From: a virus
Reading direction: 5' to 3' (one strand)
Length of the DNA stretch: 43,557 nt
IMG/VR virus record: IMGVR_UViG_3300037541_000305
Span: 1-43,557 of that record
The notes under the pieces are model-generated. The model was given only the letters and a program-made list of their open reading frames with translations, did not search any database and was not told the origin of the DNA. The position numbers and the translations under genes are program-made. Shown here piece by piece: positions 9,048 through 22,017 of this stretch; within the stretch, counting starts at the first letter, position 1, and each line of letters begins with the position of its first letter.

Positions 9048-9060
9048 ACCTCCAACATGT

Positions 9061-9115
9061 AGTGGTAGCTCTGAGGAGAACCACTGGGGGCGCAGGGGAG
9101 ATTCCTCTCGCCCCC
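9061..9115. other. Two back-to-back hairpins in the gap between early genes
   Basis: The first is AGTGGT (9061-9066) with ACCACT (9080-9085), with an inner CTC/GAG. The second is GGGGGCG (9086-9092) with CGCCCCC (9109-9115). They abut exactly and end at the stop codon of the 71-aa gene. Neither is followed by a T-tract on either strand, so they look like a processing or stability element, or the body of a small plus-strand RNA, rather than a terminator. Confidence 0.5.
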
Positions 9116-9331
9116 TTAACTGCCTTCGTACCTGACCACCGTCAACGTACCATCGGCCATTGCAGCCTTGAGGGCTAGGGCCAGCTCATGCCCAAAGTTC
9201 TCGGCATTCTGCCGATTGAAAGTTGCCGCTCCTTCTATGGCTTCTGCCAGAACTAAGATAGCTGCTCCCGTTTCCGTTATGTCGAGGTCTTCCCGGAGGT
9301 TAATGTATCGCTGTACTGCGTTTGAGTTCAT
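9116..9331 (-). CDS. Small early protein, unknown function
   Basis: 71 aa. The ATG at 9331 has AAGGAA five bases upstream. It is a helical, acidic protein (pattern LREDLDITETGAAILVLAEA) with no cysteine motif, signal or membrane segment. It stands alone between a structured-looking non-coding stretch and a double hairpin, outside the ATGA chain, so it may have its own transcript. I do not recognise the family. Confidence 0.65.
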   Translation of the reverse strand: MNSNAVQRYINLREDLDITETGAAILVLAEAIEGAATFNRQNAENFGHELALALKAAMADGTLTVVRYEGS

Positions 9332-9359
9332 GTTATTCCTTGTTTTGGTTTCTCTAGGC

Positions 9360-9760
9360 TAAGATGTACCGTTCGGCCTTGCGGCCGCACTCTCGGTTCG
9401 CTTTGCTCACCTCGTACGAGATGTTTTTCTTAGGGGCTGATACGCTGAGGTTCAGGGTTAGTCGCGTCGCTACACCTCACCCCCTATAAGGAGGAAGTGA
9501 GGGTTCTAAGGGGATACGCTAGAGGACTAGGAAGCCTGCGTTTGCCACGTTCCCGGATAGCCGTGCTGGTTCTGCTCGTCGCCCACGTTGCAGCTTGAGG
9601 CTGCACTATCCGGCATTCACCCAGGATGTATGTCTCCTGCGCAAGATTAAGCTCCTGTCGGGTGTCTAGGGAGCGCCAGATCACTAAGCCCGGCTGGCAG
9701 CAATAGCCAGCGTTGCAGGTTGTCCGGCCCTTATCGCCAACCCCTCGCCGTGAGAGTGGG
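9360..9760 (-). ncRNA. Candidate structured non-coding RNA region
   Basis: About 580 bp (9332-9912) lacks a confident gene. On the minus strand this part holds several perfect helices: 9693-9711 (GCTGGC/GCCAGC), 9589-9605 (TGCAGC/GCTGCA), the flanking pair 9606-9613 with 9553-9560 (CCGGATAG/CTATCCGG), 9475-9480 with 9497-9502 (CCTCAC/GTGAGG), and 9374-9387 (CGGCC/GGCCG) closed by a GCAA tetraloop of GNRA type when read on the minus strand. It begins just after a terminator. ORFs here either cross the terminator or lack a start; one open stretch ending at 9359 (SKANRECGRKAERYILA) could be a short peptide. The RNA interpretation is inference. Confidence 0.4.
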
Positions 9761-9761
9761 C

Positions 9762-9802
9762 CAAAAGAAAAGGGCCCCGCGGTATGTGCTTCCGGGGGCC
9801 CT
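9762..9802 (-). terminator. Rho-independent terminator of the main early operon
   Basis: AGGGCCCC (9771-9778) pairs with GGGGCCCT (9795-9802). Reading leftwards the stem is followed by TTTTCTTTT. It lies 110 bp past the stop of the PPC-motif gene, so it should end the ATGA-linked early transcript. Confidence 0.75.
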
Positions 9803-9912
9803 CCAAGGACTAACACGAACAAATTGAAGGCTCGCAGCGGCACATATCGCTTTGAACAAGGCCAAGAGAATACCACAGAGTCCGACCGTCAAGCCGATTT
9901 GTTCGTTATTTT

Positions 9913-10545
9913 TCATCTATTTTCGTAAACGGATGTAGCCAAGGAAATAAGCCTATGACGAAATTCTGCCGGCGTGTGGATTCTGGGCGTGCTATCGGTG
10001 CCGCCACCCCTTGCGCCCACTTCGCCCAGCCGTTTCGCCCTAGTGAGTCCCATGCGGGCTATTACGGCAGGATCTAGTCGGGCCTCACTATGGCCCCAAA
10101 GAAGTTCGGGAAGCTCGGTTTTGCAGGCGTACAGCAGGGTGGGCTTGCGGGCATAGTGGCCGTATTTGCCCTGTTCCACGCAGCAGGTGTAGCCCCCTTG
10201 GTCATCAGCCACTATCCACCCACCGCCCCTGGACGGCTTCGCAAGGCCGAAGTGCTTCCATGCGTGCGATCCCCAGGGGTGCTCCAGTACGCCGCCCCAC
10301 TTGCGGACGGCATACAAGGCCGCAGCAAAGCACCCGCCATCGGCGCCCTTCTGCTTCCTGACTCCGGTGAGCTTTACCGTGAGCGGCTGGCCGAACCACA
10401 TCTTGCCCCAACGCTGACAGGGTGGATGTGCCACGACGGGATAAGGACCGGCATATAGGCGTGCGTCGCGTGATTCAGGCCACGGGTCCACGTTTGGCAG
10501 TCCGTAGTAGCTTCCCCCCTCCTGGACAAAGAGTGCAGCGATCAT
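9913..10545 (-). CDS. PPC-motif DNA methylase-like protein
   Basis: 210 aa, start in ATGA overlap with the preceding gene. The segment YAGPYPVVAHPPCQRWGKMW carries a PPC motif like the catalytic PC of cytosine-C5 methyltransferases, followed by KWGGVLEHPWGSHAWKHFG. This arrangement is shared by a widespread phage family often annotated as methylase-like; that is from memory. A clear S-adenosylmethionine-binding FxGxG motif is not visible and the protein is shorter than full methyltransferases (over 300 aa), so activity is uncertain. It is the last gene before the terminator at 9762-9802. DNA modification against host restriction is one possible role. Confidence 0.55.
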   Translation of the reverse strand: MIAALFVQEGGSYYGLPNVDPWPESRDARLYAGPYPVVAHPPCQRWGKMWFGQPLTVKLTGVRKQKGADGGCFAAALYAVRKWGGVLEHPWGSHAWKHFGLAKPSRGGGWIVADDQGGYTCCVEQGKYGHYARKPTLLYACKTELPELLWGHSEARLDPAVIARMGLTRAKRLGEVGARGGGTDSTPRIHTPAEFRHRLISLATSVYENR

Positions 10546-10730
10546 GGTGTCGGCACGAAGTTGTTAAAGTCCTCTTTTTCGTCTAGCATGGCCCGTTCTG
10601 CGCCCCTATGCAGGGCAGAAACGGCCGAATGGCTCTTGGCTATGGCCTTGTGCCATTCCCTGTCGTAGCCGTCCCGCTCGGCGTTGTAGGCCATGCGGCG
10701 TAGCTCATCTAGGTGTTCTTTGGTGGTCAT
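10542..10730 (-). CDS. Small basic helical early protein, unknown
   Basis: 62 aa starting MTTKEHLDELRRMAYNAE. The ATG at 10730 overlaps the upstream stop (ATGA) and its own stop overlaps the next start. A longer in-frame ORF upstream only translates the tRNA-like element and is rejected. Charged and helical, without recognised motif. Confidence 0.6.
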   Translation of the reverse strand: MTTKEHLDELRRMAYNAERDGYDREWHKAIAKSHSAVSALHRGAERAMLDEKEDFNNFVPTP

Positions 10731-11038
10731 GTTAGATTGGCGCCACGGGCGGGATTCAAACCCGCATCCGCCCTCGTCGGGCAAGCTACTTCGCACCCAT
10801 CCCTGGGGCCGGTATTCATTCCCGGTTGCTCCACCGTGGCAAAATTGGTTAAAGCCTCAATAGCTTTGGTTTGAAGTGCCGAACTCCAGTCGTCTGCGTT
10901 CACGTAGCCTCTCAGCGCCTCACGCAGCTGGTTGTTCTCGCGTTCAAGCTCGCGGGCAAATTCCGGTGTAATCGGGCAGCGATCCCAACCCGCGTTGAAG
11001 CCTTCCATGTGCTTGTCCGTTCTGGGTGTATCGCTCAT
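10727..11038 (-). CDS. Small coiled-coil early protein whose C-terminus reads through the tRNA-like element
   Basis: 103 aa from the ATG at 11038, overlapping the HNH gene stop (ATGA). It starts MSDTPRTDKHMEGFNAGW, then a helix FARELERENNQLREAL. This 'SDTPRTD...LERE' layout is frequent among small phage proteins and recurs here in the 131-aa gene at 12895-13290. The last 34 residues (after FATVEQPG) are the translated tRNA-like element, so the ancestral protein probably ended earlier. The stop codon still overlaps the next ATG, keeping coupling intact. Function unknown. Confidence 0.6.
   Translation of the reverse strand: MSDTPRTDKHMEGFNAGWDRCPITPEFARELERENNQLREALRGYVNADDWSSALQTKAIEALTNFATVEQPGMNTGPRDGCEVACPTRADAGLNPARGANLT
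10738..10840 (-). tRNA. tRNA-like element (degenerate or atypical; no anticodon assigned)
   Basis: Read on the minus strand, 103 nt. The 5' GCCACGG pairs perfectly with 3' CCGTGGC, followed by a discriminator G and encoded CCA (10738-10740). The T arm is GCGGG-TTTGAAT-CCCGC, with T instead of the near-universal C at position 56 of the loop. Before it lies a GCCC-GACGA-GGGC hairpin like a type II variable arm. The 5' half starts TGGAGCAA, as in a D arm, but I cannot build a D stem or an anticodon arm with U33; instead there is a CCGG/CCGG hairpin. Total length exceeds any normal tRNA. It lies within the 3' end of an ORF that is ATGA-coupled onward. Confidence 0.4.
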
Positions 11039-11538
11039 TGTAATTTCCTCACTTCGTTGTCCAGCATGGTCTTCTTGGTATGACATTTACGGCATAAGAC
11101 CTGAAATCCGCCCTCCACCGTCATCCTGGCCACGAACCCCGGCAGGTCTTCCAAGCACTTGAGGCGCCCGCAGGGCACCACATGGTCCACCTGTACGTCA
11201 TCCCGCTTGAACTTGCCGTCACAGGCCGCGCACCTGTACCCATGTTTCCGGCCCCGAGGCCCCGGCCAAGGGAACTTAGCTGCCCTCAGCGCATCCTGGG
11301 CCGGCTTCCAATAGCGGAACATCCGCCGCAGCCCCGAACGTATCATGCCCCAATACTTCGCTTCCGTCCATGTTCCGCCATTACGGGTGCGCTCTACGCG
11401 GCCCTTCTTTGGCCCTTTCCTGCCCTTTACAGGCGATTTGACCCCCTGGACGGGTGCTGACACGGGTGGGAGCAGCAAAGAGGCTGGAATCGTGTAGATT
11501 CGCGTCGATCCTGTCCCAATGGTGAAATGTTCGTTCAT
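11035..11538 (-). CDS. HNH endonuclease
   Basis: 167 aa from the ATG at 11538 in ATGA overlap; a longer ORF start adds 11 residues without support. The N-terminal 60 residues are basic and Pro/Lys-rich (VKGRKGPKKGRVERTR). The HNH domain has a zinc pair CAAC near residue 108, the catalytic segment VQVDHVVPCG, and a second pair CRKC followed by HTKKT at the C-terminus. Phage HNH proteins can be homing nucleases, packaging partners of terminase or recombination nickases. The early location, away from the terminase, favours a homing or replication-linked role, but the sequence does not decide. Confidence 0.85.
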   Translation of the reverse strand: MNEHFTIGTGSTRIYTIPASLLLPPVSAPVQGVKSPVKGRKGPKKGRVERTRNGGTWTEAKYWGMIRSGLRRMFRYWKPAQDALRAAKFPWPGPRGRKHGYRCAACDGKFKRDDVQVDHVVPCGRLKCLEDLPGFVARMTVEGGFQVLCRKCHTKKTMLDNEVRKLQ

Positions 11539-11723
11539 TTGATAGTCCCTGCCCTTAGTGCTGCCTTGCAATCGCCCCGCAGGTAGTGCCCCGCCATGTC
11601 CTGCGAAATACCTAGGAACTCGGCAATGTACTTCCTACTCACGTTGAACCTGCGAAGGTGGTACACCTGCCACGCCAGCTTCTCGGCTTCAGCGTGGTTT
11701 CGTCGTGGCCGGTGTTTCTTCAT
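11535..11723 (-). CDS. Small HTH protein
   Basis: 62 aa, ATGA overlaps at both ends. Very basic N-terminus (MKKHRPRRNHAEAEK). Residues 27-52 form a helix-turn-helix, NVSRKYIAEFLGISQDMAGH, followed by YLRGDCKAA. Probably binds DNA as a regulator or as part of a recombination machinery. Immediately upstream of the HNH gene in transcription order. Confidence 0.6.
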   Translation of the reverse strand: MKKHRPRRNHAEAEKLAWQVYHLRRFNVSRKYIAEFLGISQDMAGHYLRGDCKAALRAGTIK

Positions 11724-12004
11724 TTCTTCTCCTCGTTCTCGGAAAGGGCTCGCGCCGCAATTTCACGGCACAACTGAAAGCCCTCGGCTGCGTCTCTTAC
11801 TTGGCTCATTGTAAGCCCTTGGATTCTAGCCAGCGCCTCCCGCAGCTCGCGCGTGGCGGGTTCGACGGCGTGCGTGTCGATAATCCGCGACGCCTCTAGG
11901 CCGATGCCGTCTGGCATGCCGTTGCCGGCAACCAGCGTTTTTAGCGCCAATCCCAACAGCTCACCTGCCGCGCGCATCGCGTGCTTGCTCGGTTGCGTGC
12001 TCAT
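11720..12004 (-). CDS. Early protein, unknown function
   Basis: 94 aa from the ATG at 12004, overlapping the upstream stop (ATGA). Mostly helical: AMRAAGELLGLALKTLVAGN, then ATRELREALARIQGLTMSQV, then an acidic-lysine tail (NEEKK). No metal-binding, signal or membrane motif seen. Family not recognised. Confidence 0.6.
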   Translation of the reverse strand: MSTQPSKHAMRAAGELLGLALKTLVAGNGMPDGIGLEASRIIDTHAVEPATRELREALARIQGLTMSQVRDAAEGFQLCREIAARALSENEEKK

Positions 12005-12219
12005 GTGGTCTTTCGCGGACGGAATAGTCCGCCGCATTTTGCGTTTTGGGTGTAGGTGTCGCGAGCCGTGAAACAGTTGGTTCTGATGCAATACGTTTCA
12101 CCAGGAGCGATCCTGAAGTACTCGCATTCACAGCACTTTGTTGCGCGGATGGTCGGTACCCTATCGGCTTCTTTCAGCCGGCCATCAGCAAATGCCCGCT
12201 CAATATCGCTGTCGCTCAT
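12001..12219 (-). CDS. Small cysteine-rich (putative zinc-binding) early protein
   Basis: 72 aa in the ATGA chain. After an acidic helical start (MSDSDIERAFADGRLKEADR) come six cysteines: CCEC, YC, NC and KCG. The spacing suits one or two zinc knuckles. Small zinc proteins in phage early regions often bind host proteins or nucleic acid; the target here is unknown. Confidence 0.6.
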   Translation of the reverse strand: MSDSDIERAFADGRLKEADRVPTIRATKCCECEYFRIAPGETYCIRTNCFTARDTYTQNAKCGGLFRPRKTT

Positions 12220-12449
12220 GTGCTCGCTTCCTTCTGCGCCCGCTTGGCCAAGTTCGCGATCTCGGCCGAGTAGTCAGAAGCTCGATCCGAACCTCCGCCT
12301 CCTTCAAGGCCATGAGCTTTGCAATATCGGTCGTATTCGTAGTCGCTCCAGATCGGCGCATTCATCACGTAGTAGAGATATTGGTGTATTAGCACGATTT
12401 GGTAGTGGGTCAGTTTGAATTTCAACCGAAACTTCAAGTTTTGAGGCAT
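12216..12449 (-). CDS. Small early protein downstream of a terminator-like hairpin
   Basis: The conserved-looking part is residues LTHYQIVLIHQYLYYVMNAP to the C-terminus, with WSDYEYDRYC after it, a pattern common in small phage proteins. I place the start at the ATG at 12449 (77 aa). An alternative start at 12620 is ATGA-coupled to the upstream gene and would give 134 aa, but those extra residues run through a 10-bp hairpin and AT-rich bases and begin with a copy of the neighbouring gene's first codons. Which start is used is open; Shine-Dalgarno support is weak for both. It ends in the ATGA chain. Confidence 0.55.
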   Translation of the reverse strand: MPQNLKFRLKFKLTHYQIVLIHQYLYYVMNAPIWSDYEYDRYCKAHGLEGGGGSDRASDYSAEIANLAKRAQKEAST

Positions 12450-12556
12450 TTCTAGGCGCGCTGAAAAATAAGCCTTGATTTTTTTGAGGAAAATGCGATT
12501 TTCCCGCCACTTTCTGCTAAATGCAGTTGAGGCGATCTGAAAAGGTTTCTTCACGA

Positions 12557-12580
12557 AAACCCCGGAGAAATCCGGGGTTT
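12557..12580. terminator. Strong hairpin, probable intra-operon (bidirectional) terminator
   Basis: AAACCCCGGA (12557-12566), loop GAAA, TCCGGGGTTT (12571-12580). Leftwards the stem runs into TTTTCG, and rightwards into TTTCTTCGTTT. It lies 37 bp past the stop of the gene ending at 12617 and may attenuate transcription between the upper and lower halves of the early arm. Confidence 0.6.
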
Positions 12581-12602
12581 CTTCGTTTCTGAGATTTTGG
12601 CT

Positions 12603-12628
12603 TTTGCGTTGTGGGTTCATGGTTTCAT
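12603..12628. repeat. 26-bp direct repeat at a gene junction, copy 1
   Basis: Identical to 12881-12906. On the minus strand it contains the end of one gene (codons for MKP), the stop, and the ATGA-overlapping start of the next (MNPQRK). The copies lie 278 bp apart, one gene length, so a junction has been duplicated. Confidence 0.9.
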
Positions 12629-12898
12629 CCCTCCCTTAATCGGCACGCCGATGGAGCGCAGGGCTGCGCGGGCAATATCCTCCCATGTCTTCAGATACTG
12701 TCCACTCCGGCCATAGGCTGCCATGTCGTTGGCCACCTGCTCAACCAGAGCGTCTGGGTTGTCGATTGGGAGTTCAAGGTATTTTGGCACTTCCCTCCAG
12801 CGTATCGTAAGGCCGTCACCGTTCTTCACGGCGGTAAATGCTGGCACAATATGGCCCTTAATCCTCGCCGGCTTCTTGGCTTTGCGTTGTGGGTTCAT
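12617..12898 (-). CDS. Early protein, unknown function
   Basis: 93 aa from the ATG at 12898 in ATGA overlap; the longer ORF start is not supported. Basic start MNPQRKAKKPARIKGH, a central strand-helix part (GLTIRWREVPKYLELP, VEQVANDMAAYG) and the end GGMKP. Both ends carry the 26-bp duplicated junction. Family not recognised. Confidence 0.55.
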   Translation of the reverse strand: MNPQRKAKKPARIKGHIVPAFTAVKNGDGLTIRWREVPKYLELPIDNPDALVEQVANDMAAYGRSGQYLKTWEDIARAALRSIGVPIKGGMKP

Positions 12899-12906
12899 GG
12901 TTTCAT
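12881..12906. repeat. 26-bp direct repeat at a gene junction, copy 2
   Basis: Second copy of the stop/start junction, between the 131-aa and 92-aa genes. Confidence 0.9.
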
Positions 12907-13290
12907 TGCTGCGTCGATTGCTGCGCGGGTAGTCGGGTGCGAACGGACGCTTTGAATCTTTCCCGCCTCTTGCGTAAGATCGTAAGCCCTCCAGCCGTTC
13001 AGTTCGCAAAGGTCGGCTTTCTTCTCATCCAGCCAATCCAACCGCTCCGAATCCTTGCGCGCCTCGGCAAGCTGGGCCTCTAGCTGGGTGACGCGCTTTT
13101 CAAGCCTCTGAGTGTATAGGTAGCTGCCCGGCTGTCCGGCTGATTTCTCAATAACCTGTTCGGCGGATTGAAGCTCGGCCTCTAGCTGGCTGACGCGGCG
13201 TTCGAGGGTGCGGGCGTGGTTAAGGAAGTCTGCTGGAACCTTCCCAGCGCATTTAAACTGCCAATCCGTCAGTGGCGTGTCGCTGCTCAT
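12895..13290 (-). CDS. Coiled-coil early protein
   Basis: 131 aa, ATGA overlaps at both ends. Starts MSSDTPLTDWQFK, like the SDTPRTD protein at 10727-11038. Residues 27-85 are two heptad-like stretches, TLERRVSQLEAELQSAEQVI and RLEKRVTQLEAQLAEARKD, suggesting a dimeric coiled coil. The C-terminal part is globular (ELNGWRAYDLTQEAGK). Small phage proteins of this type are common and of unknown role. Confidence 0.65.
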   Translation of the reverse strand: MSSDTPLTDWQFKCAGKVPADFLNHARTLERRVSQLEAELQSAEQVIEKSAGQPGSYLYTQRLEKRVTQLEAQLAEARKDSERLDWLDEKKADLCELNGWRAYDLTQEAGKIQSVRSHPTTRAAIDAAMKP

Positions 13291-13490
13291 GGCTGCTCCT
13301 CCTTCGGCTTAAACTTGCGCCGGGCATCCGCTGCCGCCTTTTCCTTCACCCAAGCGTCAAACTCACCCTTGGCCAGCGCAGCATAGTCCACATCTCCCCT
13401 ACGTTCCAGACGCTCACGAACGGCCCGTGCCTGCCAATTACGTTCGCTGTCACGGGTGATGTCGTCCCTGTCAAATGGGCTGTGATTCAT
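13287..13490 (-). CDS. Small charged early protein, unknown
   Basis: 67 aa in the ATGA chain. Highly charged and helical (WQARAVRERLERRGDVDYAA, then WVKEKAAADARRKFKPK). No recognised domain. Confidence 0.6.
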   Translation of the reverse strand: MNHSPFDRDDITRDSERNWQARAVRERLERRGDVDYAALAKGEFDAWVKEKAAADARRKFKPKEEQP

Positions 13491-13735
13491 GGCGCGACCT
13501 CCTCCATCTTCGGTTTGGTTGATTCAACCCAAGCCAGATACGCCTTCAATTCCCTCAGGGCGTTCTTCGGAAACGTAGGCGAATGCCAATCGTCCCGATC
13601 CCCCGCTTCTAGCCATGCGTTGACGCCAACGATGGCCAGTCGCGCTTGCAAAAGCTGCTCGCGTGTGGCGCGCAGCTCGTCGTAAAGACTATCCGTATAG
13701 TCTTGAATCCTGTCCGTGCAGTCCTTGTCGCTCAT
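13487..13735 (-). CDS. Small early protein sharing a NAWLEA motif with its neighbour
   Basis: 82 aa. The C-terminal half, NAWLEAGDRDDWHSPTFPKN, resembles NAWLEAYEADDFRSPEQKAD in the protein at 14388-14681, so the two are probably diverged paralogues on either side of the SSB gene. The N-terminal half is helical with a possible coiled coil (LYDELRATREQLLQARLA). The start is 18 bp after the SSB stop. Function unknown. Confidence 0.6.
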   Translation of the reverse strand: MSDKDCTDRIQDYTDSLYDELRATREQLLQARLAIVGVNAWLEAGDRDDWHSPTFPKNALRELKAYLAWVESTKPKMEEVAP

Positions 13736-13753
13736 TTGATTGTGTGGTTAAGG

Positions 13754-14401
13754 TTAGAATGGAACGTTTTCACTGTCGCCGACAATGGCCGGATCGGCCC
13801 CGGCTTCGAGCTTCTTGGTCTCGGTGATGGCCTTGCCGCCGCTAACCTGGGCAATCCACTCCTCGGACTTCATGATCTTGTCCTTGATGAACTCCGGCAT
13901 GGCCTCGGGGAGCACAATCGCCCCAGTTTTAGGCAGGTCGAACGTCAGGGTTGGGGCCAAGGGCTTAACCAGCGGCATTCCCTTTGGCAATGGCATCAAC
14001 CCCTCGATACGGGCGTAGGTTTTCGTCCCGTCGTCGCTCTTCTTGTGAATGACGTTGATGAGGCAGTTCGCCCCAATCAACTTGGACAGCTCGAAACCCT
14101 TCAGCTCCTCCTCGGTGAAGGGACGGCCCCGCCACGATTGAAGGGCCGCACGCAGATTCGCCTTCTTACCAAGACTGAGCGTGTATTCCTTGCCAATGAC
14201 GCGGGGTTTCGGGCCGTCATCGGTCACGACCGTCTCGCCGGGGATTTCCCAGCCAATCTGGACCTTGCGTGCGGCGATGTACGCCGTGTTGGTCGGCGTT
14301 TGCGTGCCGAGGTCAATCACGCTGTAGCAAACCCCCTGATGGACTCCCGCACTTACGGGCTCGAATGTCTTTCCTTCTGAACCTTGTTTAGCGATGGGCA
14401 T
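13754..14401 (-). CDS. SSB-like single-stranded DNA-binding protein
   Basis: 215 aa. The N-terminal region (residues 15-125) follows a pattern seen in a phage family usually called SSB-like: YSVIDLGTQTPTNTAY, then a beta-rich stretch with QIGWEIPGE, YTLSLGKKANLRAALQSWRG, and LIGANCLINVIHK. The very C-terminus is DSENVPF, an acidic tail ending in Pro-Phe like the partner-binding tip of bacterial SSB. It should coat single-stranded DNA at the fork or during recombination, in keeping with the DnaB and initiator genes further along the same arm. The start overlaps the upstream gene by 14 bp. Confidence 0.75.
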   Translation of the reverse strand: MPIAKQGSEGKTFEPVSAGVHQGVCYSVIDLGTQTPTNTAYIAARKVQIGWEIPGETVVTDDGPKPRVIGKEYTLSLGKKANLRAALQSWRGRPFTEEELKGFELSKLIGANCLINVIHKKSDDGTKTYARIEGLMPLPKGMPLVKPLAPTLTFDLPKTGAIVLPEAMPEFIKDKIMKSEEWIAQVSGGKAITETKKLEAGADPAIVGDSENVPF

Positions 14402-14681
14402 GATGTTTAATCGGTATGGTTTTGGGTATCGTTTTGGTTTTGTTGTGAAATCGGCTTAACGCCGAAGTGGGATCAACTGGGAAATAGCTCTTGTCGGCTT
14501 TTTGCTCAGGCGAGCGGAAATCGTCGGCCTCATAGGCTTCTAGCCATGCGTTAGCCGACGACACGACTAAAGCCTGTTCAATGCACGTCGGCGCCGCGAA
14601 ACGGTTGAGAAAACCGTTGATGATGTTGGCGGCGCTATCCTTTGCCGCGCAATCGCTCAATTCTCTTTGGTATGGGTTCAT
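14388..14681 (-). CDS. Early protein, paralogue-like NAWLEA motif
   Basis: 97 aa from the ATG at 14681, one base after the stop of the lipoprotein gene; the longer ORF start is rejected because it overlaps that gene. Helical middle (AANIINGFLNRFAAPTCIEQ), then the NAWLEAYEADDF motif shared with the gene at 13487-13735, and a basic Lys/His-rich end (IPIKHHAHR). Overlaps the SSB start by 14 bp. Function unknown. Confidence 0.55.
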   Translation of the reverse strand: MNPYQRELSDCAAKDSAANIINGFLNRFAAPTCIEQALVVSSANAWLEAYEADDFRSPEQKADKSYFPVDPTSALSRFHNKTKTIPKTIPIKHHAHR

Positions 14682-14682
14682 G

Positions 14683-14895
14683 TTAGTCAATCGGCCCCGC
14701 AAAGGTCCAGTTTCCGTTATAGGTTTGCGTTGCAACAAAGGTTCGCCCCTCAATTTTGACGAGCCTGTACTTAATACCGTCTCTGGTCTCCCGCAGGCCG
14801 GGAGAGTGCTTGTTTCCCATGTTCTGAGCCTCGCCGCAACCTGCTAGCAGCAGAGTCGCAATGACCAATGCAACGGCTGTGTATGTGTTTTTCAT
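14683..14895 (-). CDS. Small early lipoprotein
   Basis: 70 aa. A type II signal peptide is clear: MKNTYTAVALVIATLLLAGC, with lipobox LAGC and the modified cysteine at residue 20. The mature part is about 50 residues, polar then strand-forming (RLVKIEGRTFVATQTYNG). AAAGGA stands upstream of the ATG. It follows the beta-helix gene in the early arm. Phage T5 makes an early lipoprotein (Llp) that blocks its own receptor from the periplasmic side; the timing, size and lipobox here fit a superinfection-exclusion role, but sequence similarity to Llp is not claimed. An outer-membrane spanin subunit is less likely because the lysis genes are in the late arm. Confidence 0.75.
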   Translation of the reverse strand: MKNTYTAVALVIATLLLAGCGEAQNMGNKHSPGLRETRDGIKYRLVKIEGRTFVATQTYNGNWTFAGPID

Positions 14896-14910
14896 GTTAG
14901 TCCTTTGGGG

Positions 14911-16020
14911 TTATACTACGATTGTGTCGGGAACGGCCCCGGCCTGCCCTTGTAAGTTGTTTTTTGCTTGGCTGGAATAGGTGCCGGGACCGAACGTAAC
15001 GGGGCTTGTATTGTAAGGGAAGTTATTCCCGATGATGTTAAAACCACTACAAACATCCGTTGTCAACACTCCGTTGTGATATGCGTTGATTTCGCAGCCT
15101 TGCACCTGCACGTTTCGGCAGTTTTGGGCGATGACACCATACGATGCCTCCAAGCAATTCATGGTTTCGGGTATCATTTGGCAACCCATGATCGACACCC
15201 CGTGCGTGTGTTCGAGGTGGAAGGCCGCAAGCCCTCCTGTGACCCCGCCAAACCTATTTTCGATCATTCCACCCTGCCATTGCAGCGTGTGAATCCGCCC
15301 CGCGCCCACGTAGGGATCGCCCCGGAGCCAAACGCCACGCTTTACGGCTACCATGCTGCAATTTGAACAAAACAGCCCCTCGGTGTTGTATTTCTCGGCG
15401 TGCGCCTGGAGCCCTGTTGCCCAAAAGTTGCAACGAACGTTGGACAAGTGGGCATTGACGCACATGCCACGCAATTTGACGCCGGCCCCGGTCATCTTTG
15501 CCCAGTCGCCACCGTAGGAGCCACCGGAAACGAACACGTCCTCAAGCTTAGGATTCCAAACCCCTTCAATTTCGATGCCTTCGCGCCAGTAGCTATGCGC
15601 ATTTGATCGCACTTCGACATCCCGCAGCCTCAGCGGACACCCGCCGTGCTCGTTTGAGGCTGTTGGCTGGCCCATGCTGATCTTGAGCCCCCTGCCGCAT
15701 TGGCCTGCCCCTGCGTTGAAGGAAAGGCCCTGTATGTCGAGCCCATAAGGCTGATGGATTCCGTCCTGCTCCATCAGGAACGTGAACCCATCGCAATTCT
15801 CGAATAGCAGCCGAGACACGTTCGGCCCGTAGCCACGCAGGCTGAGGCTATGATTGCCCACCAAGCGCACCATGCTTTCGGTTATGCGATATGTGCCAGG
15901 CGGAAACTCCACGCAGCCATCGCGGCCCATTGCTGCCGATAGGGCCGAGGAAACAGCCGTTGTGTCATCGTTGGATCCGTTGGCCTTGGCTCCAAAGTCT
16001 TGTGGTCGAAATATGTTCAT
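14911..16020 (-). CDS. Right-handed beta-helix (pectate-lyase-like) protein, tailspike-like, in the early arm
   Basis: 369 aa, start in ATGA overlap with the gene at 16017-16307. The N-terminus is the classic pectate-lyase-3/tailspike entry, FRPQDFGAKANGSNDDTTAV, followed by FPPGTYRITES and the repeated short beta-strands with stacked Asn, Cys and Val (EIEGVWNPKLEDVFVSGGS, NCRNVQVQGCEINAYHNG) of a parallel beta-helix. There is no signal peptide and no N-terminal head-binding domain beyond about 10 residues. Such folds degrade or bind capsular and O-antigen polysaccharide as tailspikes. Its position among tiny early genes on the strand opposite to all virion genes is unusual: it may be a spike with its own expression or a non-virion polysaccharide-binding enzyme. 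Confidence 0.8.
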   Translation of the reverse strand: MNIFRPQDFGAKANGSNDDTTAVSSALSAAMGRDGCVEFPPGTYRITESMVRLVGNHSLSLRGYGPNVSRLLFENCDGFTFLMEQDGIHQPYGLDIQGLSFNAGAGQCGRGLKISMGQPTASNEHGGCPLRLRDVEVRSNAHSYWREGIEIEGVWNPKLEDVFVSGGSYGGDWAKMTGAGVKLRGMCVNAHLSNVRCNFWATGLQAHAEKYNTEGLFCSNCSMVAVKRGVWLRGDPYVGAGRIHTLQWQGGMIENRFGGVTGGLAAFHLEHTHGVSIMGCQMIPETMNCLEASYGVIAQNCRNVQVQGCEINAYHNGVLTTDVCSGFNIIGNNFPYNTSPVTFGPGTYSSQAKNNLQGQAGAVPDTIVV

Positions 16021-16307
16021 GTGCTGCCCCTAAAAGATAATTTCGGCATACCATCCACCGGCATTGACCCAACAAACTCTTCGCCGTTAGCTGTTTTGTG
16101 CCTTTGGGAAAGGTATCCCCAGTTCACCAAACGACGTTCTATCTCAATTTCTGGCGGCGATAACTTAACCACAGGGCGACAGGCTAGGGCGAAGGCGCAG
16201 AGGGCTTCAATCGTCCATTCTTCTGCATTGATTATCAAGGGCGCGCGGAGGGAAAAACCAAAGTCTCGCGTATCTGGCTTAAGCGGCGTTGAATCGTCTG
16301 TTTTCAT
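16017..16307 (-). CDS. Early protein, unknown function
   Basis: 96 aa with ATGA overlaps at both ends. Strands SLRAPLIINAEEW, a helix IEALCAFALACRPVV, then a winged-like C-terminal part (IEIERRLVNWGYLSQRHKTA). It could be a small winged-helix fold, but this is a weak impression. It directly precedes the beta-helix gene in the transcript. Confidence 0.55.
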   Translation of the reverse strand: MKTDDSTPLKPDTRDFGFSLRAPLIINAEEWTIEALCAFALACRPVVKLSPPEIEIERRLVNWGYLSQRHKTANGEEFVGSMPVDGMPKLSFRGST

Positions 16308-16480
16308 CGAAAAAGCCTCCGTTCTTCTGAGGCGATGTAAAACGCATCCTTAAGGCGCTTAATTTCTGCACCAAATAGCCATTGCGCGGCAATAGGTGCC
16401 CGGCGCTGGCGAGACACGGCATCTCTGTAAAGCCGGGCAATTTCTTGAGGCGGCGTGCTTAGTAATTTATCTATATTCAT
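16304..16480 (-). CDS. Small early protein, unknown
   Basis: 58 aa from the ATG at 16480, in ATGA overlap; a longer start inside the upstream gene is rejected. Helical and basic (EIARLYRDAVSRQRRAPIAA). No recognised motif. Confidence 0.55.
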   Translation of the reverse strand: MNIDKLLSTPPQEIARLYRDAVSRQRRAPIAAQWLFGAEIKRLKDAFYIASEERRLFR

Positions 16481-16764
16481 GTGCTCTTTTCCTCCTGTTT
16501 GGTTTCCTGTTCTCTCTGTTCGTGATTCTCTAACCATTGGACGCGGGCTAATGCTTCGCGCCATGCAATGTCCATTGGCCAGCCGTTAAGCGTTAGTCGC
16601 GTGTAAATGTCCGTAAAGCTTTCGCCAAGTGGTGAAGGCGAATCTGCTAGGGATGGAACCTCGTGCCAGTTTGCCAAACAGTTGGGATTGCTGAAGGCGT
16701 TATCCTGGCGGAGTTGCCATTGAAACCCGGCACGCGGAGCCCTTAGAAAATCTGGTTTGTTCAT
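16477..16764 (-). CDS. Early protein, unknown function
   Basis: 95 aa with ATGA overlaps at both ends. Contains FTDIYTRLTLNGWPMDIAWR followed by a Glu/Gln/Lys-rich tail (REQETKQEEKST). No signal, membrane segment or metal site seen. Confidence 0.55.
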   Translation of the reverse strand: MNKPDFLRAPRAGFQWQLRQDNAFSNPNCLANWHEVPSLADSPSPLGESFTDIYTRLTLNGWPMDIAWREALARVQWLENHEQREQETKQEEKST

Positions 16765-16898
16765 GAGTTGGAATCTTCTTTGTCTGTCTGTTCTGTTTCA
16801 AGTGGTGGCATAGCCTTGCGGCTGATGAGCGCAACGCCCAACACGAGCACGCCAAAGGCAAGTAGGGCCATGCCGCAGATGATGAGAAACGTATTCAT
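16761..16898 (-). CDS. Small single-pass membrane protein
   Basis: 45 aa with ATGA overlaps at both ends, which strongly supports the frame. Residues 3-26 are one hydrophobic helix (FLIICGMALLAFGVLVLGVA), then ISRKAM and a polar acidic tail. Probably an inner-membrane peptide made early. Role unknown; candidates are superinfection exclusion or modulation of a host membrane protein. Confidence 0.6.
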   Translation of the reverse strand: MNTFLIICGMALLAFGVLVLGVALISRKAMPPLETEQTDKEDSNS

Positions 16899-17008
16899 GG
16901 CGTGATAAAGCCCAGCAGCACCAGCGCGAACACGTAGCAAATGCCGATGTAAAGCGCGGCATGGAATAGAGCGGAGAGAACAGAGGGGAATGCGTTGTGT
17001 CGTTTCAT
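16895..17008 (-). CDS. Small single-pass membrane protein
   Basis: 37 aa starting MKRHNAFPSVLSALF, with the helix AALYIGICYVFALVLLGFI filling most of the rest. Both start and stop lie in ATGA overlaps with neighbours. It forms a pair with the 45-aa membrane protein that follows it; the two could act together. Confidence 0.6.
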   Translation of the reverse strand: MKRHNAFPSVLSALFHAALYIGICYVFALVLLGFITP

Positions 17009-17178
17009 GGGCTGATGGCGTCAGCTACCAAATTAAACCATTGCTCATCCGAGACGTCGGCCGGATCGGCGATTCCACGGGCAGACAGAAGCCCGATCAT
17101 GCGTTCCGCCTCCTCGGTGCTGGCGTCAGCGCCCATGCGTTGGCGAATTTCCTCTGTACTAAGTGTATTGTGTTTCAT
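17005..17178 (-). CDS. Small acidic early protein, unknown
   Basis: 57 aa, start MKHNTLSTEEIRQRMGAD, end WFNLVADAISP. ATGA overlap at both ends and a GAAGGGA Shine-Dalgarno sequence upstream. Helical and acidic, without recognised domain. Confidence 0.6.
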   Translation of the reverse strand: MKHNTLSTEEIRQRMGADASTEEAERMIGLLSARGIADPADVSDEQWFNLVADAISP

Positions 17179-17483
17179 GTTTGATTCCCTTCGCGATCAC
17201 AAAAAGCGAATCCCTCCTCAGCCAAAATAGAGCGCACGCAATCATTCGCGTCGTCCATTGCACTGGCAAGGTTGCCAACATTCAGGCCGTCCCCTTCCCA
17301 CGTTTCTTGCCATTGGTCGCGAAAGTACATGCCGCAGGGCAAATCGGGCAAGTCCTGAATTGAAAGTCCGCAAATCCGTTTTGCTGCTAGGCTAAGGCAA
17401 GCCGTTGCAAGTGATCTGGCCCCTTTCCTTGTCAAAATGCTTTGCGCCCGTTCAAGCAATGCCGAATCAATCTTTGTGTTCAT
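17175..17483 (-). CDS. Early protein, unknown, directly downstream of the ribozyme
   Basis: 102 aa from the ATG at 17483, with AAGG upstream; a start 30 bp earlier lacks support. Helical N-terminus (SALLERAQSILTRKGARSLA) and four cysteines scattered without an obvious zinc pattern. It is the first gene after the hammerhead, so its mRNA would begin with the 5'-OH end made by self-cleavage about 60 bases upstream of the start. Confidence 0.6.
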   Translation of the reverse strand: MNTKIDSALLERAQSILTRKGARSLATACLSLAAKRICGLSIQDLPDLPCGMYFRDQWQETWEGDGLNVGNLASAMDDANDCVRSILAEEGFAFCDREGNQT

Positions 17484-17516
17484 GTCTTTGCCTTGTTTAC
17501 TAGTTTGAATCAATCT

Positions 17517-17571
17517 GGACTCATCAGCGCCCGCAAATACGGGCGGACCGGCACCGCTGCCGGTTTCGTCC
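17517..17571 (-). ncRNA. Type II hammerhead ribozyme
   Basis: Read on the minus strand from 17571: GGAC (stem II, 3' strand), GAA plus A15.1, stem III ACCGGC/GCCGGT (17564-17559 with 17552-17547), then the GUC cleavage triplet with C17 at 17546, stem I CGCCCG/CGGGCG (17545-17540 with 17533-17528), core CTGATGA (17527-17521) and GTCC (17520-17517) closing stem II. Every invariant core nucleotide (CUGAUGA, GAAA, UH) is present and stems I and III are perfect 6-bp helices. Stem II is the open end, so it is a type II hammerhead, a form known from bacteria and phages. It starts three bases after the GP88 stop codon and should cut between 17546 and 17545. Confidence 0.9.
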
Positions 17572-17573
17572 TT

Positions 17574-18263
17574 TCAACCAACCACAAATCCGCTCTCGTC
17601 TTTCTTGCCCTGGCCTTTCGCCTTCAGGCCAACGACCACACCTTTGCGATCTAGGAAGCGCAAATCCGAAACATCGCCGTCAATGACGGGAAAACCAGCC
17701 CAAATTGCCGGCAAATCCGAAGCGAAAACGACCGCGACATTTCCGCCAGCCCTTAGCACGTCGATTGCTTGCGCTTCGTTCACTTCAGAACGGGAAAAGG
17801 TCAAATCATAGTTAGCTGGCAACGCTCCCTTTGCTGCCTGCAATGCACGTATCGGCGATTTTGTGTAATCGTAAAACTGCACCTTGGGAAACTGTTCCAT
17901 AATGCCGAGCCGCTCCCATGAAATATCCGACGTTCCGTTAAGGCGAATGCACGCTTGCTTGCCCTCCTTTTCGCAGTGCATAACAAACGTAGCGATGTCC
18001 GCGATGAGTTGAGCCTTAAACACAGGAAACGAATCAAAGAAAAGCCGGGTCTTGCGAATCCGGGCCGATTTCACGTTGGCAAAAGCGCCCCGGCCTGCCG
18101 AATAAAGACATGCAAGGGTGCATCCCGCAGATCGATTCGGGCAAACTTCACCGCGCCCCGCCATCTGCGCCGGAGCCAAATAGAGAATAGCAGTGCGCCA
18201 GCCGAATTGTTCGCCTTTGCTAGTCTTGGCGTCGGCGCCCACTGATAAGAGATTCAATTTCAT
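17574..18263 (-). CDS. GP88-family phage protein
   Basis: 229 aa. AAGGAA stands upstream of the ATG. The family signature is a cysteine cluster near residue 40, EVCPNRSAGCTLACLYSAGR, followed by RIRKTRLFFDSFPVFKAQL, then KQACIRLNGTSDISWERLG and VQFYDYTKSPIRALQ. I recognise this as the 'gene product 88' (GP88) family of phage proteins, whose function is unknown to me. The three clustered cysteines could hold a metal or an iron-sulfur cluster. It is the second gene of the early arm and is followed directly by the hammerhead ribozyme. Confidence 0.75.
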   Translation of the reverse strand: MKLNLLSVGADAKTSKGEQFGWRTAILYLAPAQMAGRGEVCPNRSAGCTLACLYSAGRGAFANVKSARIRKTRLFFDSFPVFKAQLIADIATFVMHCEKEGKQACIRLNGTSDISWERLGIMEQFPKVQFYDYTKSPIRALQAAKGALPANYDLTFSRSEVNEAQAIDVLRAGGNVAVVFASDLPAIWAGFPVIDGDVSDLRFLDRKGVVVGLKAKGQGKKDESGFVVG

Positions 18264-18314
18264 GTTCGTATTCCTTGTTTGTTTCAGTGTTGCTGTTTGC
18301 TGTGCTGGGAAGGG

Positions 18315-18488
18315 TTAGCGTGCGGCAAGCACCGCCTGCCAACCCATGTTGGAGTAAAACGCATCGGGCTTGCCCGCCACCTCAGCCTGTAAGACTGCAA
18401 TTGCGGCAGCGTGTGCAGCACTCGGGTCAGCGATAAGTTTCTTGGCAGCCTTCTTAGCCTTAGCGAAGTAACAGTGTTTTGTTTCCAT
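18315..18488 (-). CDS. Small basic early protein, first gene of the leftward arm
   Basis: 57 aa from the ATG at 18488 (METKHCYFAKAKKAAKKLIA). An upstream in-frame start at 18536 would cross the inverted repeats and is not preferred. Lys/Ala-rich helix, then AAAIAVLQAEVAGKPD and GWQAVLAAR. As the first gene after the divergent region it may bind DNA or a host factor. Not recognised. Confidence 0.55.
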   Translation of the reverse strand: METKHCYFAKAKKAAKKLIADPSAAHAAAIAVLQAEVAGKPDAFYSNMGWQAVLAAR

Positions 18489-18520
18489 GCCGCACACTTT
18501 ACCAGATGAAGGATAAAATA

Positions 18521-18566
18521 CTAGCTGGGAGAACACCTCATATTTCAGCTAGGGTGATTTCCCTAG
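18521..18566. promoter_or_regulatory. Nested inverted repeats, operator-like
   Basis: CTAGCTG (18521-18527) pairs with CAGCTAG (18546-18552), and CTAGGG-TGATTT-CCCTAG (18549-18566) is a second perfect inverted repeat overlapping the first. They sit 33-78 bp upstream of the first leftward gene, where an operator or a 5'-leader hairpin would be expected. Confidence 0.45.
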
Positions 18567-18783
18567 TCCTCCCGACCATACCACCAAAGTAGTATGCCGC
18601 ACTCAGTGACTTCAAAGGTAAGCGTCTAGAATCCATCCCCACGCCCCCCATGCATCGCCCACGCGCCCTGGCGCCGCCCCGGAGCCTCTCACTCATATAC
18701 AGTTGAGCCGCCCCAGTGGCCGCCCCGGCTCGCGGTGCTCGCCGCACCGGTCAGATCCAAACCGATAGGTTTAGCTTCGCTAA

Positions 18784-18799
18784 GGGTGGGGGGAGGGGG
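18784..18799 (+). other. G-quadruplex-capable run
   Basis: GGGTGGGGGGAGGGGG: sixteen bases with enough guanine for four tracts and one-base loops. Further G runs follow to 19130. It may affect strand opening or transcription. Confidence 0.5.
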
Positions 18800-18840
18800 T
18801 CACGGTGCGGCAACTGGCGTGATTATTGGGATTCAACACT

Positions 18841-18889
18841 GGGGTAGTTTTAAAAAATCCCAAGAGACACGGGGGTAGGTTTAAAAAAT
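18841..18889. repeat. Two iteron-like direct repeats
   Basis: GGGGTAGTTTTAAAAAAT (18841-18858) and GGGGTAGGTTTAAAAAAT (18872-18889) differ at one base and are 31 bp apart, about three helical turns. A related AAAAATTGGGGTA lies at 18932-18944. This suggests cooperative binding of an initiator or regulator. Confidence 0.6.
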
Positions 18890-18922
18890 TACAGATAGGA
18901 CAAGTGAGGCTTGGTGTATCTG

Positions 18923-18940
18923 CCAATTTTTAAAAATTGG
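18923..18940. promoter_or_regulatory. Perfect 18-bp AT-rich palindrome
   Basis: CCAATTTTTAAAAATTGG is exactly self-complementary and follows the two direct repeats by 33 bp. Suitable as an operator for a dimeric protein or as a DNA-unwinding site. Confidence 0.55.
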
Positions 18941-19144
18941 GGTAAAGGGGAGACCCTTTGGGCGTCCCTACGTTCGGCCCATTCGCCCCCTCAAAGCGGG
19001 GGGCTCATTATGGATGGGGGGAAAGGGTGGAGGTCGTCAAGCATTATTTTCAAGAAATGTTGAAATAGTTTGTAGATTGAAAGGGTTGGGGAATTTTACA
19101 CAATAGGCTTGACAGTCAAATTGGGGGGCGTCAGGAAATGGAGG

Positions 19145-19720
19145 ATGGAGCAAACGGAGGAAGAGAAGCGGGCTGTTAGGGCGCAGTTGAGAAAGGAGGC
19201 TGCGGCGTCGGTGCAGGAGGTGGGGGAGGAAAACAAGATGCTTTTGGAGTACAAGAAGCCGGGGAAGGCGGTGCAGATTGTGGAGGCGTTGGCGGAAGGG
19301 AAGAGTACAAAGTGGATCAAGGAGAAGTTCAAGATTGACTGGAATGCGTTGTGCCGGATTCGGACGACCCATGCGGATTTGATTCGGCGAAGGCGGGAGG
19401 TGATTGCGGAGGATGCGCTGGAGCTGGCGGAGGGGACGCGGATGCTGGCAATGGACAAGATGGCAATGATGAGCGATGACCCGGAGATGCTGGCGGCGAC
19501 GCCCTTGCGGGATTTGGCGCTCAGTTACGGGATATTCACGGACAAGCACATCTTGGCTACGGATGGGGGGAACAAGATGATTGTGGAGCACCAAGGGGCG
19601 AAAGCGGTGAGCTTGGCGGATGCGGTAAAGGCGATTGAGGAAGCAAAGGCTTTGCTGAAGGGCCGTCGGGAGGCCGTGGAAGTGGTTGTAAGCGAACCCG
19701 TGGCTGAATTAAAGGCATGA
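19145..19720 (+). CDS. terS: Terminase small subunit
   Basis: 191 aa. The ATG at 19145 is preferred over a TTG at 19109 because AGGA lies about 8 bases before it. Basic/acidic helical N-terminus, then an HTH-like segment (KAVQIVEALAEGKSTKWIKE followed by KFKIDWNALCRIR), long helices for oligomerisation, and a C-terminal tail that may contact the large subunit. It overlaps the large terminase by ATGA (19717-19720). The gene recognises phage DNA for packaging; identification rests on the domain plan and the coupled terL. Confidence 0.8.
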   Translation: MEQTEEEKRAVRAQLRKEAAASVQEVGEENKMLLEYKKPGKAVQIVEALAEGKSTKWIKEKFKIDWNALCRIRTTHADLIRRRREVIAEDALELAEGTRMLAMDKMAMMSDDPEMLAATPLRDLALSYGIFTDKHILATDGGNKMIVEHQGAKAVSLADAVKAIEEAKALLKGRREAVEVVVSEPVAELKA

Positions 19721-21345
19721 GCATGGTTTGGAAGGAACATGCGTTGCTGAAGCCTCCGACGGCGGAGGAGATGGCAGAGATGGAGCCGGAAAAGCTGGTG
19801 GAGCTGCATCGGCTTTACCATGCGGCGATTGAGAACAGCTTAAGAGATCCCTATCGGCACGGCTGGGAGTTCGATAATTGGAAGGTGGCGGACAAGTTAT
19901 TGGTGGATGCCCGTACTTTGCTGCTGCTAGGCGCCAATCGCAGCGGAAAGACCTTTTACGGGGCCAAGGCAGTCATCAAGGCGGCGATTAACAACCCAGA
20001 GAGCACCATCTTCTGCTTTTCGCAGGATGCCCAGACGAGTGTAATGGTGCAACAAGCGGCGGTATGGGGCATGTTACCGGCAGAATTGCGGCAGCGGGTG
20101 ACAAACGAAACGCATTACGTCAGCTATTCGCAGCAGAACGGCTTTGCGGGGTACAAGCTGACGCTGCCGAACAAGTCTCAGATCGTTTTTAAGACGTACA
20201 CGCAGTTTCAGCAAAACGAAAGCATCCTAGAGGGTCAGAAGTTAGGCAGTCCGGCGCCTACGGTGGTAAACATTGGGGCCTGGTGCGACGAATACCTGCT
20301 CGGGATGGCCATGCTGGACCGCTTGTATCTGCGGTTGGCGACGCATGATGCCAAGTTGTTGCTCACGTTTACGCCGATTCATGGCGAAACGGAGACGGTG
20401 AGGAACTATCGGGGCGGGGCTCGGACGATTGAAGAGCGGGATGCGCCCTTGATGAAGGAATTGCACGGGCTGGAGGGCTACAAGGTGCCCTATGTGCAGC
20501 AGAACGCCCAGAAAAACACGGCCATCATCTATTTCCACACGAAGGACAACCCGTGGGGCGGGTACGAGACCGTAGCGGAGATCTGCCGGGCGAAGAACGA
20601 CGTTTCTTACACGCTTATGTCGGCGTATGGGGTGCCGACAAGCAATGCGACGACGAGTTTTCCCTGTTTCGGGGAAATGGTAAATGTCGTCAAGCCAGAG
20701 GACATACCAAAGGGTTTGACTTATTACATGGTGCTGGACCCTGCCGGCAAAAAGAACTGGTTTATGAGTTGGATCGGGGTGGATGCGTCCGACACCTATT
20801 GGGTGGTGGCGGAGTGGCCGGATGTGACGTTTGGCGACTGGGCAAAGACCAACGGCGGCAAGTGGGTGGAGGGCGAGGGAGCACGGGGCCGGGGGTACGG
20901 CTATGACGACTACATCGACATTATCAAAAACGTCGAAAAGCAGCTTGGGATTGCCGAAGTGTACGAGCGCCTGATTGACCCTCGTCTGGGTACAAACAAA
21001 CACCAGACGCTAATGGGTAGTTCCTCAATCATGGAGGAGATGTGCAACCTCGGGATGCGCTTTGTCCCGGCCCCAGGGCTGCATATCAACGAAGGATTGC
21101 AAGCTTTGCAGAGCAAGATGGCGTACAACGTCAAAAAGCCGATTGATGGGCTGAATCGCCCGCATTTCTACATTAGCAATAGGTGCGAGAACACCATCTT
21201 GGCGCTGAAGGAGTACATCGGCGAGGACGAGAAAGAGATCTTCAAAGACCCGATTGATTGCCTGCGGTATGCGGCGATTGATGGCATCCGGTACGTTGAT
21301 ATTAAGGCAGGCGGTAGAGGAATGAAAACCCGAGGAGGCTATTAA
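19717..21345 (+). CDS. terL: Terminase large subunit
   Basis: 542 aa. The ATPase has Walker A LLLLGANRSGKTFYGA (near residue 70) and a Walker-B-like VVNIGAWCDEYLLGMA with the catalytic acid. The nuclease half has the first acidic residue in YYMVLDPAGKKNWFMSWIGV, then YERLIDPRLGTNKHQTLMG, and an acidic end near DPIDCLRYAAIDGIRYV. Length and motif order fit phage terminases. It cuts the concatemer and drives DNA into the procapsid through the portal. Coupled to terS by ATGA and to the next gene by TAATG. Confidence 0.95.
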   Translation: MSMVWKEHALLKPPTAEEMAEMEPEKLVELHRLYHAAIENSLRDPYRHGWEFDNWKVADKLLVDARTLLLLGANRSGKTFYGAKAVIKAAINNPESTIFCFSQDAQTSVMVQQAAVWGMLPAELRQRVTNETHYVSYSQQNGFAGYKLTLPNKSQIVFKTYTQFQQNESILEGQKLGSPAPTVVNIGAWCDEYLLGMAMLDRLYLRLATHDAKLLLTFTPIHGETETVRNYRGGARTIEERDAPLMKELHGLEGYKVPYVQQNAQKNTAIIYFHTKDNPWGGYETVAEICRAKNDVSYTLMSAYGVPTSNATTSFPCFGEMVNVVKPEDIPKGLTYYMVLDPAGKKNWFMSWIGVDASDTYWVVAEWPDVTFGDWAKTNGGKWVEGEGARGRGYGYDDYIDIIKNVEKQLGIAEVYERLIDPRLGTNKHQTLMGSSSIMEEMCNLGMRFVPAPGLHINEGLQALQSKMAYNVKKPIDGLNRPHFYISNRCENTILALKEYIGEDEKEIFKDPIDCLRYAAIDGIRYVDIKAGGRGMKTRGGY

Positions 21346-21791
21346 TGAATGCAACAACAGCAAAACGGCGTGGACGTAAACCCCAGCCCCAACGTGAGCC
21401 GCAACCTGGGGACATCCGATTTATGTCCTTGGCCAAAGAGATGAAAATGGCCCCGCCTGAATTGGCAAGGTTGCGAGACAATCACCTTTGCGAAAAGGAT
21501 TTCTACGAGGTTGACGGGGCCAAATGGTTTACAGCATCCGGGGCCGACAAGTTGCGTTTAGCCGTGGAAATTCCGATGGTGGTGCCCAAGCGGCTCAAAG
21601 CGCATGTGATTCACCCGGCGCGCAACGAAAACTGGGTGTTTGCTGCCATTGAAGGGCGCGACGGCAAGTATCCTGTGGCAATTCCCCGCCGGCTAAAAGA
21701 TCGTCTCATCGGCAAATCCATTTTTGTCGATTGTATCAAGGACGAGTCGGGAGGGGAAAGTTTTCGCCATGAATTGCTCACCGGACTCTGA
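21345..21791 (+). CDS. Unknown protein between terminase and portal
   Basis: 148 aa. A strong GAGGAGG lies 7 bases before the TAATG-coupled start. Basic N-terminus (AKRRGRKPQPQREPQP), then a globular part with DFYEVDGAKWFTASGADKLR, which resembles an excisionase/Mor-like small DNA-binding fold, and a beta-rich end (VAIPRRLKDRLIGKSIFVDC). The position suggests a packaging accessory or late regulator; neither is shown. Confidence 0.55.
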   Translation: MNATTAKRRGRKPQPQREPQPGDIRFMSLAKEMKMAPPELARLRDNHLCEKDFYEVDGAKWFTASGADKLRLAVEIPMVVPKRLKAHVIHPARNENWVFAAIEGRDGKYPVAIPRRLKDRLIGKSIFVDCIKDESGGESFRHELLTGL

Positions 21792-22017
21792 AAAAGACCT
21801 TACAGAAGACCCTGTGTGGTTGAATCAGCAAGCAGACAGGTTTCTTGCCTTTGAAATGCTTTATCATGTGGTTCATGCGTCTTACAACGAAGTCGTTCCC
21901 TCTGCTTTGGCGGACAAGCTTGGGCTGAACTATAAACTTGTTTCCACGATGATCAGGCAGATTGGCAGACGCGAAACCACTAGCCAGCTCAAGCAACGTT
22001 TCAATGAACAACTCTAA
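21769..22017 (+). CDS. Small unknown protein, HTH-like C-terminus
   Basis: 82 aa from the ATG at 21769, overlapping the previous gene by 23 bp; an earlier start would overlap more. FLAFEMLYHVVHASYNEVVP is a helix pair, followed by ALADKLGLNYKLVSTMIRQI, which has the spacing of a helix-turn-helix. It overlaps the portal start by 14 bp. Confidence 0.5.
   Translation: MNCSPDSEKDLTEDPVWLNQQADRFLAFEMLYHVVHASYNEVVPSALADKLGLNYKLVSTMIRQIGRRETTSQLKQRFNEQL

Follow-up and report, generated by a model that had tools for sequence, protein, structure and literature searches.

The DNA analysed here, called the window throughout, is a stretch of 43,557 nucleotides (43.5 kb) from the IMG/VR record of an uncultured phage. 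Close to the start of a leftward operon on its minus strand lies a gene of the GP88 family (17574–18263; 229 amino acids; PF17338, E = 5.5e-49; phrog_1617), and its TGA stop codon (17576–17574) is separated by two bases (AA) from stem II of a type II hammerhead ribozyme (17571–17517, minus strand). The original prediction had put this ribozyme directly behind a GP88 gene, which the family match bears out, but had counted three bases after the stop codon. The ATG (17483–17481) of the next cistron, which encodes 102 amino acids of no family (17175–17483, minus strand), lies 33 nucleotides past the ribozyme end and is preceded by a Shine–Dalgarno-like AAGG (17491–17494, minus strand) that resides outside the ribozyme.

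The rest of the leftward operon (6971–17483, minus strand) comprises about 20 ORFs, and the earlier count of about 15 small genes downstream was too low. The operon ends with genes for a DnaD-like helicase loader (8994–8314) and a DnaB helicase (8362–6971), both on the minus strand, but also contains a tail-spike-like gene, so that ‘early’, the original label for this polycistron, is tentative. The gene in question, for a tail-spike/pectate-lyase-like protein (14911–16020, minus strand), resides within this replication-type operon and not among the rightward structural genes. Ahead of the operon, about 600 base pairs (18500–19100) have no evident gene and may constitute a control region. Near the ribozyme, the minus strand showed no consensus promoter or terminator-like site, and sites of these kinds are no commoner than in shuffled sequence. 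A search for DNA relatives of positions 14001–22000 returned none among 50,697 phage records. A near relative, contig L002, carries a letter-for-letter identical ribozyme within surrounding sequence that is about 97% identical.

Read directly from the minus strand, the ribozyme begins with GGAC (17571–17568), which pairs with the terminal GTCC (17520–17517) to form a perfect stem II of four base pairs. Between these strands lie GAAA (17567–17564; G12, A13, A14 and A15.1), the stem III hairpin (17563–17548; CCGGCA and TGCCGG closed by a GCGG loop), TC (17547 and 17546), the stem I hairpin (17545–17528; CGCCCG and CGGGCG closed by a TATTTG loop that starts with U 17539) and CTGATGA (17527–17521), in which core position N7 is T (U in the RNA). 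The hammerhead core CUGANGA...GAAA...UH is complete and unmutated; stem III has six perfect base pairs plus A15.1–U16.1, and stem I has six plus a U·G closing pair. An A follows the final GTCC, and another A (17572) immediately precedes stem II. Stem II is open and stems I and III each end in a loop, which in both the sequence and the minimum free energy (MFE) fold corresponds to the type II permutation; the MFE fold (−29.3 kcal/mol, z = −3.2) is exactly that of a hammerhead. Homology with the hammerhead fold predicts cleavage between C17 (17546), which follows U16.1 (17547), and C1.1 (17545), in agreement with the site originally proposed. The observation of a complete type II hammerhead behind GP88 is confirmed.

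Relatives with the same stem II and core were collected from IMG/VR with the pattern GGACGAAA-N15..45-GCTGATGAGTCC, which is present in at least 119 stretches. When one genome each for 84,980 bacterial and archaeal species was searched, the exact pattern occurred in two contigs alone (L135 and L136; JAFDVR010000020.1 and JAFDVR010000014.1), both in one Acidobacteria MAG; either the sub-class is essentially a phage feature or this MAG contains phage sequence.

To place these ribozymes relative to the neighbouring reading frames, the longest frame upstream of each was taken and its stop codon located. This test replaced greedy calling of the longest ORFs, which had assigned many of the ribozymes in GC-rich loci to the ‘inside’ of shadow ORFs. 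Among 94 non-redundant relatives, 70 have an upstream stop codon between −20 and +6 nucleotides from the first base of the ribozyme, a proportion that falls to 9% when positions are drawn at random. Offsets of 0 and +1 are the most frequent, and at +1 the stop codon is a TAG that shares its G with the start of stem II. A second set, in which stem II is formed by GGTC and GACC, behaves similarly, with the upstream stop codon abutting the ribozyme in 125 of 160 non-redundant loci. A separate Shine–Dalgarno sequence and start codon usually follow about 20–25 nucleotides past the ribozyme, and the flanking genes are mixed and mostly of unknown function. Thus, a strikingly fixed order is observed across hundreds of phage loci: upstream stop codon, A, ribozyme, ribosome-binding site and start codon. 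Tandem arrays also occur, with up to seven ribozymes in one locus. Seven type II hammerheads with a GGCC stem II are found within about 4 kb of contig L394 (IMGVR_UViG_3300038412_000035; 1142–5157, minus strand).

From the computed structure, homology, covariation and placement, we infer that the window element is probably a functional type II hammerhead serving as intercistronic punctuation, which would likely yield two mRNAs, each with its own lifetime and its own translation. Specifically, the leftward phage transcript would fold co-transcriptionally at 17571–17517 and cut itself between C17 and C1.1. The GP88 message would then end in the stem III hairpin carrying a 2′,3′-cyclic phosphate, and the downstream message would open with the stem I hairpin, its first nucleotide bearing a 5′-OH, and continue through a leader that contains the next gene’s ribosome-binding site to the helicase genes at its end. 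Each new end would carry a hairpin because type II alone among the permutations leaves a whole hairpin on both products. Hairpins at 3′ termini slow 3′ exonucleases, and paired 5′ ends without a 5′-monophosphate are poor entry sites for RNase E, so both cleavage products should be stabilized and uncoupled. In the fold predicted for the 3′ product, the AAGG and the ATG of the next gene stay unpaired. The predicted splitting of a co-directional transcript, also put forward in the original prediction, is strongly backed by the intercistronic placement seen throughout the family. Its description there as a ‘switch for differential stability’ is too strong, as a constitutive cut would fit equally.

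Cleavage could instead act mainly on translation, with the fold isolating the downstream ribosome-binding site until the cut releases the upstream strand of stem II. Support for this possibility comes from relatives in which core position 7, a free position of the hammerhead, is G and CUGAGGAG is placed as a Shine–Dalgarno sequence. At one locus (L218, 2204–3240), each of four tandem hammerheads has the core CTGAGGAG at Shine–Dalgarno spacing, with the ATG of the next small gene 5–6 nucleotides past its GGAG. Like the window element, the L218 copies are of type II with a stem II of four base pairs, and the series begins behind a GP88 homologue; they differ in preceding successive small genes and in having N7 = G, so that CUGAGGAG can double as a Shine–Dalgarno sequence. 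When four stem II types are pooled, non-redundant loci with N7 = G have a start codon within 8 nucleotides of the ribozyme in 25 of 32 cases (not fully independent ones, since L218 contributes four), and those with any other N7 in 15 of 376. The association is also evident within the GGTC set alone (Fisher p = 3e-15), in which 22 of the 23 loci that have N7 = G and a start codon carry no separate Shine–Dalgarno sequence and 95 of 115 with another N7 do carry one. A related expectation, that a GGAC 3′ strand of stem II (GAGGAC) would bring start codons close whatever the base at N7, failed for N7 = T, where none of 12 loci shows such proximity.

These sequence patterns suggest that in the N7 = G subset the catalytic strand CUGAGGAG doubles as a ribosome-binding site that would be buried in the intact ribozyme and freed when stem II comes apart following the cut. 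A limited literature search found no description of such a subset. The subset suggests a natural counterpart to engineered ribozyme-controlled translation. For the window element itself, a mainly translational role is unlikely: N7 is U, the start codon is 33 nucleotides away with its own AAGG, and the copy has no built-in ribosome-binding site. A broader reading, which we hold only tentatively and with less than even confidence, is that phage type II hammerheads form a general two-ended mRNA punctuation module, leaving a hairpin-closed 3′ end and a hairpin-closed 5′-OH end, with a subset that uses the catalytic strand as a ribosome-binding site so that cleavage unlocks translation. The window element would then be a member without the built-in site.

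The cut might also serve chiefly as a substitute for a terminator, giving the GP88 message a defined 3′ end and leaving the downstream message as a by-product. The location of the ribozyme directly after the stop codon, the terminal hairpin that stem III would provide and the lack of a terminator-like site on the minus strand immediately past GP88 are all compatible with this proposal. However, ribozymes in relatives are also tightly spaced from the downstream start codon, and tandem arrays have predicted cuts on either side of small genes, which makes a function confined to the GP88 end improbable.

A ribozyme directly behind a GP88 gene is found in at least four divergent lineages, represented by the window and L002, by L075 (GP88 45% identical), by L218 (IMGVR_UViG_3300048916_000152; GP88 homologue 50% identical) and by Rhizobium phage vB_RleA_TRX32-1 (MW023914; GP88 homologue 46.5% identical). 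The upstream gene in L075 had correctly been guessed to be GP88, and the same guess for L043 was wrong. Among the best 80 GP88 loci in IMG/VR, L218 is the only one where a ribozyme immediately follows the gene, and in L150 there is one about 1 kb beyond it; conversely, GP88 accounts for 2 of 71 genes upstream of ribozymes. GP88 was on these grounds rejected as an obligatory partner, and the pairing is recurrent, not obligatory. Most GP88 relatives are without a ribozyme at this place, so GP88 operons do not generally require the cut.

The TRX32-1 locus resembles that of the window in having a type II hammerhead directly behind the GP88 homologue and before the next small gene (L125, MW023914.1; L125:2772–2843). 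It differs in a possible pseudoknot of six base pairs between loop I and the 3′ tail, in a bulged base in the core strand and in a second hammerhead, of type I, about 700 nucleotides downstream (L125:3502–3566). Neither TRX32-1 hammerhead reaches the Rfam cut-off.

Another possibility is that the window element only resembles a hammerhead, being inactive or a relic, or is a pair of hairpins recognized by RNase III or another host nuclease. Certain consensus-like hammerheads were inactive in earlier tests (PMC3088659), and the element scores below the Rfam cut-off. At the gathering threshold, Rfam yields no match anywhere in the window. At a relaxed threshold, RF02276 (Hammerhead_II) gives a full-length match to the element at 32.1 bits (E = 6e-4 across all families), compared with a gathering cut-off of 37 bits, which is a detection threshold and not a structural feature. 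The check with this Rfam model proposed in the original prediction has therefore been run and falls short of threshold, but the threshold is badly calibrated for this sub-class: just 2 of 30 pattern-identical relatives from 15 loci reach it, and 28 are missed, so that it fails to tell these elements from noise. Because the cut-off takes so few of these relatives, the sub-threshold score is a property of the Rfam model, reflecting its treatment of the short stem II and different periphery, and is no counter-evidence to the window element.

Several features argue against a relic. Every core base of the window element is intact, the L002 copy is identical, and covariation and core constancy extend throughout the family. 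In relatives, both other stems form in 138 of 144 pattern instances versus 0.1% of shuffles. Helix II is fixed by the search pattern, and the covariation is accordingly read from helices I and III; in a 63-member alignment these stems give a covariation score of 0.614, a figure biased towards structure because the alignment favoured members with a short stem III hairpin, whereas shuffles reach 0.14 and slid partners no more than 0.10. Of the 17 base pairs in the whole structure, 11 (in stems I and III) have double changes, amounting to 251 double-change cells. A covariance model (R1) built from these 63 aligned phage elements, with the window element and its near-identical relative excluded, identifies the element with 69.9 bits (E = 4.1e-19, span 17574–17509) as its sole match in 43.5 kb. 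Together with the complete core and stems and the hammerhead MFE fold, this high class-model score upholds the originally predicted type II identity, and an inactive sequence or simple nuclease substrate has a low probability. A chance occurrence, conceivable for a small motif sought in 43.5 kb, is refuted by the significance under this independent model, by the exact intercistronic placement and by the controls, as a scrambled core with unchanged stem II occurs in 0 IMG/VR stretches and shuffled or reversed sequences gave 0 matches in a descriptor search over GP88-type loci.

Two further bases characterize the sub-class with a stem II of four base pairs. All 94 relatives of the first set have an A immediately before stem II, though the search pattern did not demand one, and loop I starts with U in 93 of these 94 and in 159 of 160 members of the GGTC/GACC set. 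The window element has both (A 17572 and U 17539); the original prediction had overlooked the A. We propose these two bases as a candidate tertiary contact of the sub-class. A pseudoknot between loop I and the 3′ tail is unsupported for this sub-class, in which the fraction with at least four pairs (0.27) equals that of shuffled tails; the window element could form four such pairs (UUUG with CAAA).

A blastn search with the ribozyme alone returned weak matches throughout. One of these, in the cultured marine Methylophilales phage MEP301 (E = 0.4; MW452941.1, L137:701–753), is an unannotated type I hammerhead candidate with the core CTGAAGA, located around the end of gp02 and ahead of gp03.

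Type II hammerheads were described by Perreault et al. in 2011 as abundant in bacteria and prophages, including arrays that flank single genes, and those lying between phage genes were proposed to process polycistronic mRNA (PMC3088659). In that work, 14 of 18 natural hammerheads cleaved in vitro (the tested set includes inactive look-alikes), and a hammerhead triplet from A. tumefaciens cleaved in E. coli, such arrays also being cut in vitro (PMC3088659). The paper also cites haloviruses HF1 and HF2, in which the 5′ end of an early transcript maps within 3 nucleotides of a hammerhead site (PMC3088659). There, as in the window, the ribozyme lies ahead of genes in a viral polycistron, an early one in HF1/HF2, whereas the halovirus element has a core variant, belongs to an archaeal virus, lies 13 nucleotides ahead of a helicase gene and is not behind GP88. 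The window sub-class shares with the published type II class (RF02276) its core, permutation, intergenic position in phage operons, occurrence in several copies per genome and proposed role in mRNA processing. It differs in its stem II of four base pairs, in the constant A before stem II and loop I U, in the unsupported pseudoknot, and in that the window element and most of the sub-class score below the Rfam cut-off.

The novelty implied by the original prediction is therefore modest, since a 2011 paper already made this proposal for phage polycistrons (PMC3088659) and the window element adds one member to a known type of phage ribozyme. As far as a limited literature search shows, three things are new: the quantified stop–ribozyme–start grammar, the A/U signature that marks elements with a stem II of four base pairs, and the N7 = G group with its proposed ribosome-binding strand. 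A cultured and inducible phage with the GP88–ribozyme arrangement, Rhizobium phage TRX32-1, offers a laboratory system. The role of hammerheads in bacteria and phages has been open since 2011, and a 2017 review still treated their prokaryotic function as such while drawing the link to phages (PMC6155905). The order of stop codon, ribozyme, ribosome-binding site and start codon gives these RNAs a sharp and testable candidate role in the processing of phage mRNA.
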